Source: a bacterium
Lineage (GTDB): Bacteria > Acidobacteriota > Thermoanaerobaculia > Multivoradales > JAHEKO01
NCBI GenBank assembly: GCA_024224155.1
Contig: JAAENP010000319.1
Span: forward strand, 1-39,464
Direction: 5' to 3'
DNA length: 39,464 nt
Shown: one piece after another, positions 2,262 through 12,728 of the stretch
Layout of the letters: the number at the start of each line of letters is the position of its first letter
How positions within the stretch are numbered: the stretch's first letter is position 1
The notes under the pieces: model-generated
What the model saw: only the letters and a program-made list of their open reading frames with translations
What the model was told of the DNA's origin: nothing
Databases searched by the model: none
Translations under genes and position numbers: made by a program

Positions 2262-3911
2262 GTGCCCGCGTCGGAACATGGAGACGAAGACCGCGACCTT
2301 CGCGGCGAGAACGCGACGCCCCCGAACACCGAGCTCGTCTTCCCCGAGCCCCGACCCCGAGCCTCAAGATGGCTCGAACGGGCACTACGACCGCTCGACG
2401 GCCTCTTCAACCGCGTCTACACCTCGGATTGGAACCCGCTCTACAAGAGCGGCGCCCTGGCCGTCACTTTTCTCCTGATGACACTCGTCACCGGGGTCTA
2501 TCTTTTTATCCTCTATCAAGTGGCCGATCCTTACGGATCGGTCGCCCGCCTAGACTCCACCTGGCTGGGCTCGGTCATGCGCTCGGTGCATCGTTACAGC
2601 GCCGACCTCGCCATCGTGGCGGTGGCGTTGCACGCCTTGAAGATGCTGATGACGGGACGCACCTGGGGCCCGCGCGCACTCGCCTGGGTCACGGGCGTCT
2701 TCCTGCTCGGCGTCCTGTTGCTCTGCGGCTGGACCGGATTGGTGATGGCCTGGGACGTCCAGGGACAGCTGGTGGCCATCGAAGGAGCTCGGCTTCTGGA
2801 TCTGCTGCCCATTTTCTCGGAGCCGATCAGCCGGTCGTTCACGCACCCGGATTCCGTCGGGCGATCATTCTTCTTCATGAATCTGTTTCTCCATGTCGCG
2901 CTGCCGCTCGGACTCGCCGGCCTCTATTGGCTGCATTCCTCTCGAGTGGCCAGGGCGCCGATCTTCCCGCCGAAGGCGATCCATCGGTACTCGATCGGCG
3001 CGGTGATCGTCCTGTCGGTTCTAGTACCTGTTCCCCTGCCGCCGAAGTCGGACCTTCTGGCCGTACCGATCGACGTGCCACTCGACGTCTTCTACGCATT
3101 CTGGCTTCCGGTCGCGCGCGGTGTCTCGGCCCCCGCACACCTGCTCTTCTGGGCCGCGTTGGCCGCGGTCACGGTTTCCGTTCCTTGGTGGTGGCGCCCC
3201 GAGAAACGCATGGTCGCAAAATCCATCGTCGACGAGCATCACTGCGCCGGATGCACCCAGTGCTACCTCGATTGTCCGTACGAGGCGATCAACATGGTCA
3301 CGCGCTCAGAGCCCTCGGACCTGTCGGTGTATGTCGCCAGAGTGGACCCGGCGCTGTGCGTGGGCTGCGGCATCTGCTCGGGCTCGTGTGCGCCGATGGG
3401 AGTCGGCCCGGTAGGCCGCTCCGGCCGCGACCAGCTGCGAGCGGCCGAGGCCTTCCTGCACGCCACACAACCGGGAGTGGACGATCTGGTGCTCATCGGC
3501 TGCGGCTACGGGCCCGGATCCGATATGACCCTGGCTTCGGAGGATGGGCTCATCGCCTACCCGAGCGGCTGCACCGGCTCGGTCCACACCTCGGTCATCG
3601 AGTCGATTCTGCGTTGGGGCGTCGCCGGCGTCTATCTCCTTACCTGCCCGGATCGAGACTGTTTCTTTCGCGAGGGCCCCAAGTGGCTCGAGGAGCGCGT
3701 CTACAACGACCGCGAGGCCGAGCTCAAAAACCGGATCGACAAGCGCCGCGTGAGAATCGGCAGCTTCGCCACCAGCGAGACCGCGTTAGCCTGGCGCTCG
3801 ATCGCCGAATTCCGAGCCGAGCTCGCCGGTCTCTCTCCCGTCGTGCCCGAGCGCGACGCCGCCGTCGAAGCGGAATGCAAGACCACGGACGCCTATGCCG
3901 ATTATGCGTAG
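2262..3911 (+). CDS. Cytochrome b / di-[4Fe-4S] ferredoxin / MvhD-like fusion protein
   Basis: Three redox modules are fused in 549 residues. Residues about 60-310 form a cytochrome b/b6 N-terminal domain with two exact H-x13-H pairs (H110/H124 and H211/H225), the expected ligands for two b hemes in the membrane. Residues 328-338 (CAGCTQCYLDCP) and 366-376 (CVGCGICSGSC) are two 4Fe-4S cluster motifs. Residues about 408-480 resemble the MvhD/FrhD iron-sulfur subunit of hydrogenase and heterodisulfide reductase complexes, including C414, C437, C462, C467 and the FFREGPKWLEERV ending. It probably moves electrons between the quinone pool and a soluble iron-sulfur partner; direction and partner are inference. 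The GTG at 2262 is the only start before the first membrane helix. The next gene overlaps its end by 17 nt, indicating coupled translation. Confidence 0.85.
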   Translation: MPASEHGDEDRDLRGENATPPNTELVFPEPRPRASRWLERALRPLDGLFNRVYTSDWNPLYKSGALAVTFLLMTLVTGVYLFILYQVADPYGSVARLDSTWLGSVMRSVHRYSADLAIVAVALHALKMLMTGRTWGPRALAWVTGVFLLGVLLLCGWTGLVMAWDVQGQLVAIEGARLLDLLPIFSEPISRSFTHPDSVGRSFFFMNLFLHVALPLGLAGLYWLHSSRVARAPIFPPKAIHRYSIGAVIVLSVLVPVPLPPKSDLLAVPIDVPLDVFYAFWLPVARGVSAPAHLLFWAALAAVTVSVPWWWRPEKRMVAKSIVDEHHCAGCTQCYLDCPYEAINMVTRSEPSDLSVYVARVDPALCVGCGICSGSCAPMGVGPVGRSGRDQLRAAEAFLHATQPGVDDLVLIGCGYGPGSDMTLASEDGLIAYPSGCTGSVHTSVIESILRWGVAGVYLLTCPDRDCFFREGPKWLEERVYNDREAELKNRIDKRRVRIGSFATSETALAWRSIAEFRAELAGLSPVVPERDAAVEAECKTTDAYADYA

Positions 3912-4464
3912 TCCCGGTGGCAGCACCGCCTCTTGGCTTCGTCACTTGATCATCGTGGCGTTCACCGGAGTCATCCTCGCCGCCGTCGTGGTGCTCGGAC
4001 AAGTGCCGCTCGGCCGCGGCAGCGGCCAGGCCAGGCTCCGGCTGGCCCTTCGAACGGTACTGAGCAATGCCGAGATCTGTACCGACCGAACCTCCGCGGA
4101 GCTCGAGGCCCTGCCGCAGCACATGCGCCAAGCGCGGGTTTGCGAGGAGGTGGCTCCCCCCTATCGGCTGCAGGTCGAGATCGACGGCGTTGAAGTCGTC
4201 GACGAGCGCGTCGAGCCGGGCGGCCTGCGCGGGGACCGGCCCTTGATCGTGGATCGCCAGATCGAGCTGCCGCCTGGTCCGGAGGACATGGTCGTGCGCT
4301 TCAGCCCGGTCGTTGATGTGCTTCTGGAGGAATCCCTGACCCGGGCGTCGGTCACCCTCCCGAGCTATGTGCTCGAGCAGAACGTCGAGCTGGTCGCCGA
4401 CCGCATCCTGCTGGTAACGCTCAACGACGCCACCGGCGCGCTCGAGATCTACGGCGTGCCCTGA
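3895..4464 (+). CDS. Membrane-anchored protein of unknown function, coupled to the cytochrome b fusion gene
   Basis: The ATG at 3895 (or 3904) lies inside the end of the preceding gene, so the two are read from one message and probably work together. The 189-residue product has one N-terminal hydrophobic segment (about residues 17-39, LIIVAFTGVILAAVVVLGQV) and then a soluble region, probably outside the cytoplasm, with two isolated cysteines (in EICTD and RVCEEV). No heme-binding CxxCH or other cofactor motif is present. I do not recognise the family. The context suggests an accessory or assembly subunit of the cytochrome b complex. Confidence 0.65.
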   Translation: MPIMRSPGGSTASWLRHLIIVAFTGVILAAVVVLGQVPLGRGSGQARLRLALRTVLSNAEICTDRTSAELEALPQHMRQARVCEEVAPPYRLQVEIDGVEVVDERVEPGGLRGDRPLIVDRQIELPPGPEDMVVRFSPVVDVLLEESLTRASVTLPSYVLEQNVELVADRILLVTLNDATGALEIYGVP

Positions 4465-4525: not shown

Positions 4526-5428
4526 CTACGCCATGACGCGCCGGACCGCTTCGACGACCCACCCGACGGTCGGACCGTTGAACGCATAGGCGATGGTGCC
4601 GTCGGGCGCCAGCACGTAGACCAGCGCCGGGTGTGTGACATCACCCGTCTGCGGATCGCGATCGATGGGCATGTCCCAGGCCTCCAGCACGCCGAGGACC
4701 TCCGCCACCTCGCCCGAAAGCACGTGCGTGGCCGGCAGCTCGCTCAGGCGCCAAGACTCGACCAGCGAGGGTAGGGCGCTCGGTGTGTCGCGCCAGGGAT
4801 CCAGCGTCACCACCACCACGGCTGACGGGACTTTCGGCTCGACCTCCGCAAGCTCGGTCGCGGCACGTCGGACGGTCTCGACGACGACGGGGCAGATCGT
4901 CTTGCAGTGGGCGAAGGCGAATGTCAGTAGCGCAGGTCGTCCATCCAGATCCTCGATCGACAGCACCTCTCCACTTTGATCGACCAGGCCCAGAACCGGC
5001 GCCGGTCTCTCCTGCCGCGGATAGCTCTCGGGAAGCTCGTCGGGAATCGTCGAAAGCCGCGTAATGGCATCCAGACGACGTGCTTGAGCGACTCGTCCGC
5101 CCACGAATGCCACGCCGATCAAGGGCACCAACGAAAGGGCGACCAGGACCACGCGCCCGATTCGGCCCAGCGCCAACTGCCGGAGAGCTCGGCCCAGATC
5201 GCGGCCCCAGACACCGAGCAAGAAGCCAAGCATCGCCAGTGGACTGGCGATCAAGGTCGCCCAGCCCCAGGGCTCGGGCAGGCCGTTGGGCTGGGTCCCG
5301 AAGCACACGCTTCGTGCGCTCGCCAGCCAGTCTGGCGGAACCGGTAGCGGCGCAAACGCGAGCGCCCACCACATGACTGTAATCACCAGCCAGGCGATAA
5401 ACGCTCCGAGGGCGAATTTCGGTGTCAC
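4526..5428 (-). CDS. senC: SCO1/SenC-family copper chaperone with N-terminal membrane region
   Basis: The C-terminal half (about residues 143-300) is a thioredoxin-fold SCO domain with the copper ligands C175 and C179 (CKTICP) and H266 (DVTHPALVY). SCO proteins deliver copper to, or reduce, the CuA centre of oxidase subunit II, matching the CuA subunit encoded just upstream. The N-terminal 115 residues carry three hydrophobic segments (about 6-27, 57-73 and 92-111), more than the single anchor of ordinary SCO1. The start is a GTG at 5428 preceded by GGAGGT at good spacing. It is separated from the norY-like gene by 226 bp that include a 127-bp inverted-repeat element, so it may have its own promoter. 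The gene symbol follows the norSY-senC arrangement. Confidence 0.88.
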   Translation of the reverse strand: MTPKFALGAFIAWLVITVMWWALAFAPLPVPPDWLASARSVCFGTQPNGLPEPWGWATLIASPLAMLGFLLGVWGRDLGRALRQLALGRIGRVVLVALSLVPLIGVAFVGGRVAQARRLDAITRLSTIPDELPESYPRQERPAPVLGLVDQSGEVLSIEDLDGRPALLTFAFAHCKTICPVVVETVRRAATELAEVEPKVPSAVVVVTLDPWRDTPSALPSLVESWRLSELPATHVLSGEVAEVLGVLEAWDMPIDRDPQTGDVTHPALVYVLAPDGTIAYAFNGPTVGWVVEAVRRVMA

Positions 5429-5527
5429 CTACGCACCTCCGCCCCTAGCCCAGACGCTTCTCAGGCCAGAACAAAGGAGAGGCTTGCAGTAGGCCGAGGC
5501 CCTCATGTGGCTTTGGCACGAAACAAA

Positions 5528-5654
5528 CGCGACGCCGCAAATGCCCGAAGATGCGAGGCTTGCGACCGGAGGCTGCCGCAGGCGTACTCGAAGTACGCCG
5601 AGGACAGCCGATGGGAGCATAACGAAGCAGATTCGGGCATAGGCGGCCGTCGCG
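5528..5654. repeat. 127-bp element with terminal inverted repeats and a central hairpin
   Basis: The left end (5528-5549) and right end (5632-5654) are near-perfect inverted copies: the left contains CGCGACGCCGC then ATGCCCGAA, the right contains TTCGGGCAT then GCGGCCGTCGCG. In the middle, 5581-5599 is a perfect 8-bp hairpin, GGCGTACT-CGA-AGTACGCC, flanked by GGCTG and CAGCC that can extend pairing. No reading frame of substance lies inside. The right end touches the stop codon of the norY-like gene at 5655. It looks like a dispersed non-coding repeat (MITE- or REP-like) or a large 3' RNA structure; other genomic copies cannot be seen here. Confidence 0.65.
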
Positions 5655-7382
5655 TCAGCCGATTTTCCAGATGAGGGAGAGCAGTTTCCAATTCGTGAAG
5701 TAGTAGAGCATGAAAACCGCCAGAAAGACGAAGACCAGAATCACGGTTCCCGGGGTCCCTTTCTTGTGTACTTGCTCGGCCTCTTCGCCCGTGTTGATCT
5801 GCGGCGGGAGCTTGCTGACACCCTGCGGGACTCCGGCCATTCCGGGCTCGAGTGCCTCGAAATCGAGCGTCTTACCGAAGAACACCGAGAGCACCGCGAT
5901 GATCACGAAAGACAGGGCGCCGATCGCCGCCAGCACCCCGCCCAGACCGACGCCGGCCAGTAGCAGGTCGACCGCGGGCGGGAACTCGTGCTGAAACGGT
6001 GCATTGGCGAAGGAAATGTCCCAATGCCTCCGCGGAGCGCCGAAGATTCCGGCGAACGTCATGCTCATCGACATCACGGTGATGCCGATCGCAAACAAGT
6101 AGGGCTGGATCTTGGCCAGCTTCCACAGCGCCACCTTCTTGCGGAAGATGAGCGGTATCACGTAGTAGGTCAGCGCCATGAACGCCAGGGCCGTGCCGCC
6201 CACCACCGTGGTGTGGAAGTGACCGGGAATCCGCAGCGTGTTGTGGGCGATGATGTTGATCTGCTCGGTGCCGATCGTCACGCCCGTGATGCCGCCGAGA
6301 AAGCCGAAGATCAGCAGCGACATGAACATCCCGCTGAAACCCGGGTCGCTCCAGGGCGCCTTCTTCAGCCACTCGAAGCTGCCCTTGACGAAGCCGCGCA
6401 TGCGCTGTCCGAGCTCGATGCCCGCCGGCACGGTGAAGCCGTGGATCATGCTGGCCAGAACCGCCAGATACATCGCGTAGCTCGTGTTCCAGACCTTCCA
6501 TCCCGGTCCCATGCCCGGGTCGACCAGGAGGTGGTGGGCCGACGCCATCGAGATGAAGCCGACGTAGAGCACGAACGCCCACCGGCTGACTTTCTCGTTG
6601 AGCACCACGGCGCCCACGGTCAGCCCGCCGAGCAGATACCAGACCGCGACCATGGCCGCGACATTGATCTGCTGCGACGAATGTCCCAGGCCCCACCAGA
6701 TCAGCCGGTAGACCTGGGGGTCCATCTCCATCATGCCGAGCGACCAGAAGAAGGTCGGGATATAGACGATGGCGCCGTGCAGGAGGGTGATGACGGCGAT
6801 GATCGCCGCCGTCAATCCGCCAAAGGCGACGAGCGGCATCGACCCCTCGTAGGTCTTCTCCCGCTTGGCGACCACCAGGCTCGCGAAGAACAGACCCACG
6901 ACGATCAGAGCACCGACGGCGAAGAGGATGATCCCCAGGTAGTAGAGCGGGTCGGCTCTGAGCGGTACGTAGGAAGTAAACAGTACGTCCGCCTTACCGG
7001 CGAACACCATCCAGTCGACCATCACCATGCCGACGAGCATCAGGGCAAACCCCGTCCAGCCGAGCCTGGGGGCGGGCTGGCGCGAGTTGAGGGCGATCGG
7101 GCCGGCGAAGTAAAGAATCGCCATCTCGAAGAAGATGATGAAGAAGATCAACATATTGAGCCCGTGCGCGGTCAGCAGCCGGTAATACCAGTCGGCCGGC
7201 AGCAGATGCACGGTCTGCCAGCGGGTCAGGGCGAGCAGAATCGCCGCCACGGCGCCGATCAGGAGGGCGACGATCGCCACGACCGCGTTGATCTTGAGCA
7301 GGTTCTCGGCATCGCGGTTGACGTTCAGGCCGGTGACCGGACAGCGGCGAAACACCACATCGGAGAAGCTGGGCGAGCTCAT
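5655..7382 (-). CDS. norY: Heme-copper oxidase superfamily subunit I, NorY (sNOR)-like
   Basis: The 575-residue, many-helix protein has the heme-copper oxidase ligand set: H73 (TAHG) and H390 for the low-spin heme, H388 (PGHFHTT) for the high-spin heme, and H234, H283 and H284 for CuB. In O2-reducing A- and B-type oxidases the CuB helix reads H-P-x-V-Y with a cross-linked tyrosine four residues after the histidine; here it is H234-S-S-Q-Q238, with no tyrosine. That helix and the senC neighbour match, as I recall, the NorSY (sNOR) group described near norSY-senC genes of Nitrosomonas and proposed to reduce NO. The start overlaps the norS-like stop by 4 nt (ATGA). Routine annotation would call this cytochrome c oxidase subunit I. 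NO reduction is inferred, not shown. Confidence 0.8.
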   Translation of the reverse strand: MSSPSFSDVVFRRCPVTGLNVNRDAENLLKINAVVAIVALLIGAVAAILLALTRWQTVHLLPADWYYRLLTAHGLNMLIFFIIFFEMAILYFAGPIALNSRQPAPRLGWTGFALMLVGMVMVDWMVFAGKADVLFTSYVPLRADPLYYLGIILFAVGALIVVGLFFASLVVAKREKTYEGSMPLVAFGGLTAAIIAVITLLHGAIVYIPTFFWSLGMMEMDPQVYRLIWWGLGHSSQQINVAAMVAVWYLLGGLTVGAVVLNEKVSRWAFVLYVGFISMASAHHLLVDPGMGPGWKVWNTSYAMYLAVLASMIHGFTVPAGIELGQRMRGFVKGSFEWLKKAPWSDPGFSGMFMSLLIFGFLGGITGVTIGTEQINIIAHNTLRIPGHFHTTVVGGTALAFMALTYYVIPLIFRKKVALWKLAKIQPYLFAIGITVMSMSMTFAGIFGAPRRHWDISFANAPFQHEFPPAVDLLLAGVGLGGVLAAIGALSFVIIAVLSVFFGKTLDFEALEPGMAGVPQGVSKLPPQINTGEEAEQVHKKGTPGTVILVFVFLAVFMLYYFTNWKLLSLIWKIG

Positions 7383-7969
7383 AGGGCACCTCCTGCCGCG
7401 GCGGCCGCGCCTGCTGCGGCACCCGAGCCCGCGGGCTCGATCACGATCTTGCCGAGCATCAGATGATGATTGATGCCGCAGAACTCGTTACAGATCACCT
7501 TGTAGTCACCGGGGTTGTTGGGCGTGATCTTGAGCCCGTAGTCATATCCAGGAACGATCTGGAAGTTGACATTCGCCGGATAGAGGCTGAAACCGTGATT
7601 GACGTCGAGCGAGGAAATGTGAAGCGTGTACTCCACCCCCTCTTTGAGAACCAGCACAGGCTTCCAAGCCCACATCGTGCCCTGGAGATAGACGTCGCTT
7701 CCCGGCGGCGGCTTGACGACCGGGATCCCGCTCTCCTCGCCGACCTTGTAGTCTTCGATGAAGCGCTCGACCCGGGTCGCAAAAGCCTTGGCTTCGACCT
7801 TGGAGCGAATCCCGGAAGGGTTCTGTCCACCCTTGATATGCCAAAACGGCATCATGGCGAAGAGCACCATGCACCAGATGAACGCGATGATGATCCAGAC
7901 CTTTTCCTGCTTGCCCGCAGGCTTCCACCAGACCCCTTTGGGTGGGACGATTGCGGTGTGTAGGCTCAT
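7379..7969 (-). CDS. norS: Heme-copper oxidase subunit II with intact CuA site, NorS-like
   Basis: The 196-residue product has one membrane helix (about residues 24-43) and a cupredoxin domain. All CuA ligands are present: H125 (DVNHGFSLY) and C160-x3-C164-x3-H168-x2-M171 (CNEFCGINHHLM). It should take electrons from a soluble donor such as cytochrome c or a cupredoxin and pass them to the norY-like subunit; no c-type heme motif is fused to it. It is shorter than classical COX II and has a single anchor, as in B-type oxidases. The tail is a low-complexity Ala/Gly stretch. The ATG at 7969 follows AAGGAGG, a near-perfect ribosome binding site, and the stop overlaps the next start. Confidence 0.85.
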   Translation of the reverse strand: MSLHTAIVPPKGVWWKPAGKQEKVWIIIAFIWCMVLFAMMPFWHIKGGQNPSGIRSKVEAKAFATRVERFIEDYKVGEESGIPVVKPPPGSDVYLQGTMWAWKPVLVLKEGVEYTLHISSLDVNHGFSLYPANVNFQIVPGYDYGLKITPNNPGDYKVICNEFCGINHHLMLGKIVIEPAGSGAAAGAAAAAGGAL

Positions 7970-7984
7970 CCGGGTCCTCCTTGC

Positions 7985-8155
7985 CTATGGAAGCGTCGCA
8001 TCGGGAAGGGTGAGGACCTCGTACATGCCCCATCCGGTGTAGAAGAGGAACATCACCAGCAGACCCAACAGAAGCAGAAGGAAGGGCCGGTCGAACAGGC
8101 GCTGCCCCAAGGGGATCTCGGCCGGTGGCGAGGTGGTTTCGGTGGTTTCTTCCAT
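7985..8155 (-). CDS. Small single-helix membrane protein, first gene of the norS/norY-like cluster
   Basis: The chosen ATG at 8155 is preceded by AGGGGG at suitable spacing; an in-frame GTG at 8191 is possible but less well placed. The 56-residue product has an acidic, threonine-rich N-terminus and one helix (about residues 22-41, PFLLLLLGLLVMFLFYTGWG). It ends 15 bp before the norS-like start, so it is almost certainly in the same operon. Small one-helix subunits are common in heme-copper oxidases; a structural subunit is the likely role, but the sequence itself is not diagnostic. Confidence 0.7.
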   Translation of the reverse strand: MEETTETTSPPAEIPLGQRLFDRPFLLLLLGLLVMFLFYTGWGMYEVLTLPDATLP

Positions 8156-8300
8156 TGGGCCCCCTTTTCCCTGGCGTTGCATGTGGCTCACGCGCTCGAT
8201 ACCCCAGGCCTCGACCCCTCGTGAACCGGCGGCTAGAAAATGTTGCGCTCAATATCTCCCACCCCTTTGCGTATTGGACCACCTTTTTGGGTAGGTTCAG

Positions 8301-11120: not shown

Positions 11121-12728
11121 TCAAGGCATTCGGAAAAGATCGTCGCGCAGCTCTTTGCCGATCTTGGTGTTGAGCCGGATGATGCGCGCCAGATTGTGCT
11201 CCTCGACCCAGTCCACGAGATCCTGCGGCAAGGCGCTCTGGTACCAGAACCGATCACCGTCTCTCAGCCGTTCGAACTGGTCTCGCACGACGTGAAAGAT
11301 GAGCTCGCCCACCATGGCGCCGGGCACGTGGTCCTCGGCCAGCGCGCCCACCCAGGCGTCGATGTCGTCCACCGAGGCGTAGATTGCGGCAAGCCGCTGC
11401 CGGGCCTCGCGATCACCGGTAATGTCGGCAAAGGTCCGGGCCGGTGGCAACCCCAGATCGATGCGCGTCTGGTTGTAGCTCGCCAGGCCGTGGTCGCGGC
11501 CCCGCTGGATATTGAGCGCGGGCAGATCGAAACCGCCCTCACCGGGTCGGCCGAATAAAAAATTGCGCACGTCGTCCACGACCTGGACGTCCACCTCCTG
11601 CGAATAAGCCGAGGCGAGCCCGCGCAGAAACGGCTCGACACCGGTATCGACCAGCTCCTGGGGCGCGAAGAAGGCATCTCGCAGTCGGAGGTGGCCCCCC
11701 GGAATCGGTTTTCCGTCGCGAGCCACGCGCCGCAGCTTCCTTGGCAACAAGCTGTGACCGAAACGGAAACACGCGGTAGAGAACAGGTTCGAGATCTCGG
11801 GACGGACCTTGGGATCGTAGCCTTCGTATGGAGCCAGGGCTCCCGCACCCAGGAGTGCCGGCAAGAACTCGTTGTAGGTAATCGCCTGGAGCTCGGCGCC
11901 GACAAGGGCCCGGGCCAGCTGATAGCGCTCTTCGTGCTTGGAGACTCCCTGGCGGCGCAGCATGCGGGCTATGCGGTTGTGCTCGCGCACGAACAGCACG
12001 TGCAAGGAGGTGAGCACGACATTCTCGTTCGCGCGCACGTCCCCGGCCAGGAAAAGCGACGGATCATGATCCGTCGGCGCGTTGGCCAGACCGCGGGTAT
12101 TGCCGGGCAGCAGGCCCGCGCCTCCGGTCTTCAAACGATCACCCTTGCCACGTCTTCGGCGCAAAGCCCTGGCACGCTCCTTGTCCGAGCCGTAAACCGA
12201 CGAGCCATCTATCCAGGCCGTAATCTCGTTGACCTGCTGTCGGACCCGGCCCTTGCCATGGTTGGAGCGCAGAAAGGGGATCACCATCTCGCCGGTTCCT
12301 GCCGGATCGAAAAACGGATCGCCCATCGGAACCGGAATGTCCATCCGCTCGGGCGGATCGGCAGGACCGGTGAGCGAGATATCGTGGTCGACAAACTGCC
12401 CCCAAGCCCAGATGAAGTGGCTCATCCCGGCGCGATTCCGCCGCGAGCCTTCCTGAGCGGCACAACCGTTACTGATCTCACGCGCCCCGGGTCTCGAGAC
12501 TCCGGCGGGCGTCGAGCGGCCGTTGTCATAGGCGGGGCTCGTCAGCCGAAGCAGCTCGACTCCCGTACTGCCCCACTCGGCGTGGTCCTTGTTGTTGCCG
12601 GTACCGTCGATCGAGCGGAACTTGAGCCGCTCGGCCGACGCTCCACCCGCGCCGGCAAGGACAAGCGCCAAAGCCAGGGCCGCTGTTTTCTCTGTTCTCG
12701 ACTTCGAACTCGGTTTCGCCTCGCCCAT
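11121..12728 (-). CDS. Secreted animal-type (peroxidase-cyclooxygenase family) heme peroxidase
   Basis: The 535-residue product has an N-terminal signal sequence (ALALALVLAGAGGASA, about residues 16-31) and an animal heme peroxidase domain. Visible landmarks are the distal histidine region WAWGQFVDHDISLT, the catalytic-helix stretch REHNRIARMLRR, and the proximal heme-ligand region FRFGHSLLPRKLRR. These enzymes use H2O2 to oxidise halides or organic substrates; export suggests a role outside the cytoplasm. The ATG at 12728 follows GGGGAGGAG, a strong ribosome binding site. It is divergent from the S9 peptidase gene, with an inverted repeat between them, and ppc follows 36 bp downstream. Confidence 0.9.
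   Translation of the reverse strand: MGEAKPSSKSRTEKTAALALALVLAGAGGASAERLKFRSIDGTGNNKDHAEWGSTGVELLRLTSPAYDNGRSTPAGVSRPGAREISNGCAAQEGSRRNRAGMSHFIWAWGQFVDHDISLTGPADPPERMDIPVPMGDPFFDPAGTGEMVIPFLRSNHGKGRVRQQVNEITAWIDGSSVYGSDKERARALRRRRGKGDRLKTGGAGLLPGNTRGLANAPTDHDPSLFLAGDVRANENVVLTSLHVLFVREHNRIARMLRRQGVSKHEERYQLARALVGAELQAITYNEFLPALLGAGALAPYEGYDPKVRPEISNLFSTACFRFGHSLLPRKLRRVARDGKPIPGGHLRLRDAFFAPQELVDTGVEPFLRGLASAYSQEVDVQVVDDVRNFLFGRPGEGGFDLPALNIQRGRDHGLASYNQTRIDLGLPPARTFADITGDREARQRLAAIYASVDDIDAWVGALAEDHVPGAMVGELIFHVVRDQFERLRDGDRFWYQSALPQDLVDWVEEHNLARIIRLNTKIGKELRDDLFRMP

Follow-up and report, generated by a model that had tools for sequence, protein, structure and literature searches.

Four genes on the minus strand, running from 8155 to 4526 of the window (the whole 39,464-nucleotide stretch of DNA analysed here) in the order small protein, subunit II, subunit I and SCO protein, form the core of a heme-copper enzyme cluster, with two further genes beside it on the plus strand. 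The features at the locus, and two related genes elsewhere in the genome, are:

7985-8155, minus strand: small one-helix protein, the first gene; 56 aa from a conserved Met, with a hydrophobic stretch; homologue in 79 of 83 loci
7379-7969, minus strand: subunit II, a CuA cupredoxin with one membrane helix (COX2, PF00116, 26.3 bits against a cut-off of 22); all of the 82 rows share the CuA ligands
5655-7382, minus strand: subunit I, the heme-copper catalytic subunit, 575 aa, in which Gln238 replaces the cross-linked Tyr (COX1, PF00115, 211.6 bits); ligands and Gln invariant, position supported by a tree
6659-6683, minus strand: CuB helix segment of subunit I, region of residues 234-241, H-S-S-Q-Q-I-N-V; coordinates taken from codon numbers, ends approximate
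4526-5428, minus strand: copper chaperone of the SCO1/SenC type, with about three membrane segments at its N-terminus (SCO1-SenC, PF02630, 76.6 bits); homologue in 76 of 83 loci
2262-3911, plus strand: fusion of a cytochrome b6-like di-heme protein, an HdrA-type ferredoxin with two [4Fe-4S] motifs and MvhD/FlpD; linked in 71 of 85 loci
3895-4464, plus strand: one-helix protein with a conserved C..HMR..C pattern, overlapping the 2262-3911 gene; homologue in 59 of 83 loci
Elsewhere in the genome, G000:C312:9695-11452 and G000:C154:206515-208191: a NosZ gene over the cut-off and a NosZ-like gene under it, respectively

The genes for subunits I and II overlap by four bases, and a subunit II gene adjoins subunit I in 82 of the 83 loci. 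A longer open reading frame for the small protein begins at 8191; its residue 13 is the conserved Met, which makes the start at 8155 likelier. In the SCO protein a CxxxCP motif and a later His are conserved. The earlier note on this DNA had described these four genes, and they are real: its small one-helix first gene recurs in the relatives and its end at 8155 coincides with the conserved Met, the SCO1/SenC protein that it placed after the subunits is recognised by its Pfam model, and the extra membrane segments that it saw there correspond to the three hydrophobic N-terminal stretches. The set was nevertheless incomplete, as the plus-strand genes at 2262-3911 and 3895-4464 also belong to the gene unit. 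Both the residue pattern and the gene set are far beyond chance. A scan for promoters and terminators gave a score not above that of shuffles, and PADLOC returned no match.

Subunit I contains H73 and H390 as ligands of the low-spin heme, H388 as ligand of the high-spin heme and H234, H283 and H284 as ligands of CuB. Its CuB helix reads G-H234-S-S-Q237-Q238-I-N240, with Gln238 as the fourth residue after the CuB ligand His234. Across the 83 aligned rows, one for the window and one for each of 82 loci, none of the six His varies, nor do Q237, Q238 and N240; the CuA ligands of subunit II are H125, C160, C164, H168 and M171, with E162 between the two Cys. The full complement of heme and CuB His, the absence of the cross-linked Tyr from the H-S-S-Q-Q run and the complete CuA site had all been read from the window before, and each holds throughout the aligned relatives. 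Two Thermus plasmid homologues (L113:9983-11668 and L114:9983-11665), which were aligned apart, keep the Gln pair and have Lys in place of H390 (HFK for HFH). The cNOR and qNOR families are ruled out by the Gln together with the complete CuA site; neither is known to have a CuA subunit. At the same position they have Glu, according to Table A4 of PMC8756737.

The relatives were gathered by several searches. A named-relative scan with the peptides QQ[IV]N[VL][AC]AM and AHHLLVDP confirmed at least 477 loci, 80 of which were kept, and the Gln in these loci is partly a matter of construction, since the scan peptides include QQ. Among the matches listed are Acidobacteria, Gemmatimonadetes, Oligoflexia, Bdellovibrionales, Eisenbacteria, Rokubacteria, Spirochaetia, Kiritimatiellia, Myxococcota and others. 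In whole-protein searches covering 20 relatives, 297 genomes of the phylum, 95 genomes of the phylum to which a Rokubacteria record belongs and a plasmid collection, close members (at least 46% identity) again have Gln, as do the members found with a Thermus query among 368 genomes of a Bdellovibrionota-like phylum, wherever the site is covered. A Thermoanaerobaculia record (L034) holds a homologue 76% identical to the window's protein, and by this gene similarity the organism is probably an acidobacterium (Acidobacteriota) close to Thermoanaerobaculia. The next relatives, at about 33% identity, are ba3 oxidases with Tyr, members of the same phylum included. Additional plasmid matches checked for Gln or Asn members (L116-L119) all have Tyr; among seven more, L216 was not counted and the other six have Tyr, one of them (L219) differing at other ligand positions. 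The phylum reached from G313 includes the Oligoflexia genomes and yielded no Nitrosomonas.

Four Methylomirabilis-like genomes supplied Asn-type proteins (L195, L205, L206 and L208) and proteins with Asp in place of a CuB His (L189 and L190). A passage of PMC6094997 credits Ca. Methylomirabilis with one sNOR and one gNOR, Table A4 of PMC8756737 gives Asn for sNOR, Asp for gNOR and Gln for eNOR, and PMC3475470, in the part concerned, describes a change of Tyr to Asn in the Bacillus azotoformans enzyme, the features of which are found in the N. eutropha sNOR. On the strength of these accounts the Asn and Asp proteins served as putative references for sNOR and gNOR. They were recognised from the residue and the type of genome rather than by name, the Methylomirabilis identity being itself a putative one. 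A tree of subunit I, already proposed in the earlier note, was built from 63 rows and places the window's enzyme among 30 Gln rows set off by a branch with SH-aLRT 97, outside the O2-reducing clade of 17 Tyr rows (SH-aLRT 98) and separate from the four Asn rows (SH-aLRT 100). The same three groups persist in a 61-row tree built without the gNOR rows and without the columns of the CuB helix (SH-aLRT 97, 92 and 100, respectively); both are quick runs with a long-branch warning from the program, and L208, on a long branch, may be another Asn-type. In a Rokubacteria group (L135, L137-L141, L155 and L162) the Gln-type enzyme mostly has a second heme-copper-type subunit I as its neighbour. This second protein retains both heme His (AHYHG), is without the CuB His pair and forms a long branch next to the Gln clade.

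It had been proposed that the cluster belongs with NorSY (sNOR) rather than with the cytochrome c oxidases. The part of this proposal that stands is a candidate CuA-equipped NO reductase, which is favoured by the active-site residue, the tree and the NirK/NosZ context described below; the assignment to sNOR does not. The guess is understandable because the norSY-senC gene order (II - I - SCO) is present in the window and, small membrane peptide included, resembles that of the sNOR/qCuANOR cluster described in part of PMC3475470 for B. azotoformans; the enzymes of ammonia oxidisers and of Bacillus (bNOR/qCuANOR) likewise share the CuA subunit II, the SCO/SenC protein and the small peptide. Their site, however, has Asn, found in all four putative sNOR references, whereas Gln occupies it in 83 of 83 rows here; the Asn-type references branch apart, and a single clade of Gln and Asn rows was rejected (p-AU 0.0017, given putative references). 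An sNOR is therefore an extremely improbable identity for this enzyme.

The family known as eNOR is already named, and a characterised eNOR comes from Rhodothermus marinus. The window's enzyme fits the family by sequence, in a tree that holds no authenticated eNOR: Gln stands in for Tyr, subunit I is a B-family relative apart from the Tyr-type oxidases, and a cupredoxin subunit II lies beside subunit I, a combination that matches the eNOR of Hemp and Gennis. In Table A4 and section 3.3 of PMC8756737 eNOR has Gln at the Tyr position and its sequences include a Thermus protein; by the Gln, and since Thermus plasmids carry a Gln-type member, eNOR is the best name. That source names neither Gemmatimonadota nor Acidobacteria, and PMC11388526 cites Murali et al. 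2024 on the family. We therefore consider an eNOR-type nitric oxide reductase, a member of the heme-copper superfamily, to be the likely product of the cluster; it differs from the eNOR of Hemp and Gennis by the added SCO protein, small peptide and cytochrome b6/ferredoxin/MvhD partner.

The fold and all of the metal ligands are shared with the ba3-type (B-family) O2 reductases, which are also the closest solved structures to subunit I. Placement among them was rejected, as the fourth residue after the CuB His is Tyr in 17 of 17 ba3 rows and Gln in the window, and the ba3 rows form a separate clade; a position within the O2 reducers, which the earlier note had named as refuting its reading, thus did not occur. 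An enzyme of this kind might in principle still reduce O2 with high affinity, either without the cross-linked Tyr or by using another Tyr such as Y273, Y302 or Y249. All three are invariant in subunit I, with Y273 and Y302 kept throughout the 30 Gln-type rows and neither column holding Tyr in the 17 ba3 rows, and high-affinity O2 reduction has been argued, in the relevant part of PMC6967387, for the sNOR of Nitrosomonas europaea. Conversely, the Gln rows form a clade outside that of the Tyr-type enzymes, the cluster is linked to NirK, and the predicted model of subunit I (pLDDT 77, moderate) falls below 60 in blocks round residues 231-240, making the CuB region too uncertain for judging the reach of another Tyr. 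On this evidence O2 reduction is a very unlikely account. One conserved proton channel is expected of an eNOR. In columns that we take, from ba3 enzymes, to be a K-type proton channel, conservation is partial: Y249, S311 and T/S317 are kept, and Val245 and His314 replace the Tyr and Thr of the ba3 rows. The VIA-align rows are A-type and ba3 oxidases with no NOR listed, and carry no weight either way.

The eNOR-type cluster is accompanied by a conserved partner. The protein encoded at 2262-3911 combines a b6-like domain whose four His, in heme-ligand spacing, are invariant in 39 rows, a domain containing two [4Fe-4S] motifs like the C-terminus of HdrA and an MvhD/FlpD domain. Its predicted model is confident (pLDDT 88.8), the membrane part matching cytochrome b of bc1 and b6f. 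Profiles of cytochrome b6, of the HdrA C-terminal ferredoxin domain and of MvhD each match one part of the family, with all NCBIfam matches under their cut-offs; in contrast to these known proteins, the window's protein fuses all three in one chain and is linked to NOR genes. Opposite-strand homologues lie upstream in 50 loci and downstream in two (the window's arrangement), and same-strand homologues lie downstream in 18 and upstream in one. A homologue is present in 43 of the 47 loci with 4.5 kb of flank on both sides. Despite adequate flanks, none was found in L080, Thermomicrobium and the two Thermus loci. The one-helix protein at 3895-4464 has no Pfam or NCBIfam match; its homologue is fused to the end of the cytochrome b protein in L046, L049 and L074. 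Another variant, L039:8603-9979, is a cytochrome b partner that lacks the MvhD and iron-sulfur domains and runs straight into an end resembling the one-helix protein, which suggests that cytochrome b and the one-helix protein are the core of the module. On a Defluviimonas plasmid a single gene run reads small protein, II, I, heme o synthase, SCO, cytochrome b, hypothetical protein and hemerythrin family. Judging by their conserved linkage alone, the 2262-3911 and 3895-4464 proteins are probably an accessory electron-transfer module. Our literature search found no description of an eNOR partnered by a cytochrome b or by FlpD/MvhD, although such a link may still be published; one b6/FlpD protein appears in the table of PMC8756737 on other ORFs.

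The genomic context supports NO reduction. The Thermus plasmid copies adjoin Rrf2 and DUF542 genes, and the Defluviimonas copy shares its gene run with a hemerythrin-family gene. In the window's genome (96.6% complete) four proteins match the COX1 family, namely subunit I and three Tyr-type oxidases, so no second NOR of this family was found. It also encodes a full-length clade II-like NosZ over the cut-off and a divergent NosZ-like protein under it. Among carriers of the cluster, NosZ is over the cut-off in 20 of 47 and not in the other 27 (two of the genomes, G003 and G318, look like one counted twice); within the phylum sample, at E<=1e-100, it was found in four carriers out of only seven, against 28 of 290 other genomes (Fisher p 0.003). 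NirK is over the cut-off in 17 of 46 carriers and in none of the remaining 29, to which the window's genome belongs (best score 31 bits against a cut-off of 296). Many carriers have neither of the two over the cut-off, which speaks against NO reduction. By a raw count from coordinates, nine of these 17 with NirK (G193, G034, G314, G321, G324, G343, G347, G334 and G332, judged by record titles and kinship to span at least four phyla) carry it about 6 kb or less from the cluster on a shared contig. A tblastn search of the 83 loci (6 kb flanks) with one linked NirK protein gave six clear cases, the query locus included, two of them over the curated cut-off; NirK directly follows the cluster in L037 and L040. 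The linked NirK proteins L037:6211-7737 and L080:11775-13238 have a C-terminal cytochrome c-like domain.

The absence of NirK from the window's genome would also suit an enzyme that removes NO as protection rather than in respiration, with the cytochrome b module a separate neighbour. An Rrf2-like gene adjoins the cluster in 15 of 83 loci, as would be in keeping with detoxification, although the two that were checked are over the cut-off for the Rrf2 family and under that of the NsrR model. Retention of the cytochrome b protein in nearly all of the well-flanked loci, across four relative arrangements, and the presence of NosZ in the same genome argue against a purely protective role, which we regard as unlikely.

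For the preferred eNOR reading, it is plausible that electrons enter at CuA and pass through the low-spin heme to the high-spin heme/CuB pair, where two NO would be converted to N2O, the SCO protein probably loading CuA. The cytochrome b6/ferredoxin/MvhD protein and its one-helix partner, as their linkage suggests, may deliver electrons to the enzyme itself or to the quinone pool behind it. In the window's organism the N2O would pass to NosZ, and the NO presumably comes from another source, as no NirK was found. A more elaborate arrangement, speculative and on balance unlikely, is a membrane-spanning eNOR machine in most of these phyla, in which a cytoplasmic reductant would deliver electrons through the MvhD/HdrA-type ferredoxin, the di-heme cytochrome b and the C..HMR..C protein to CuA, bypassing bc1 and cytochrome c. 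Because common family models call these genes cytochrome c oxidase subunits, the organism would be credited with one extra oxidase and no NO reductase; the eNOR reading instead gives it an NO reductase alongside an N2O reductase, and no NirK. The conserved b6/HdrA/MvhD partner makes the electron donor of eNOR directly testable.

Two other kinds of gene occur in the neighbourhood. A TIGR04053 radical SAM protein, related to heme-modifying enzymes, lies near the cluster in L038 (891-2144) and on the Thermus plasmids L113 and L114; the group that holds it occurs in 5 of 80 loci in a gene-neighbour clustering of which we used only the small groups, as the largest merge core genes and shadow ORFs. 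In the window, a PEP carboxylase gene lies between the cluster and the gene for an animal-type haem peroxidase (11121-12728, minus strand; PF03098, 499.7 bits), which is two genes upstream.
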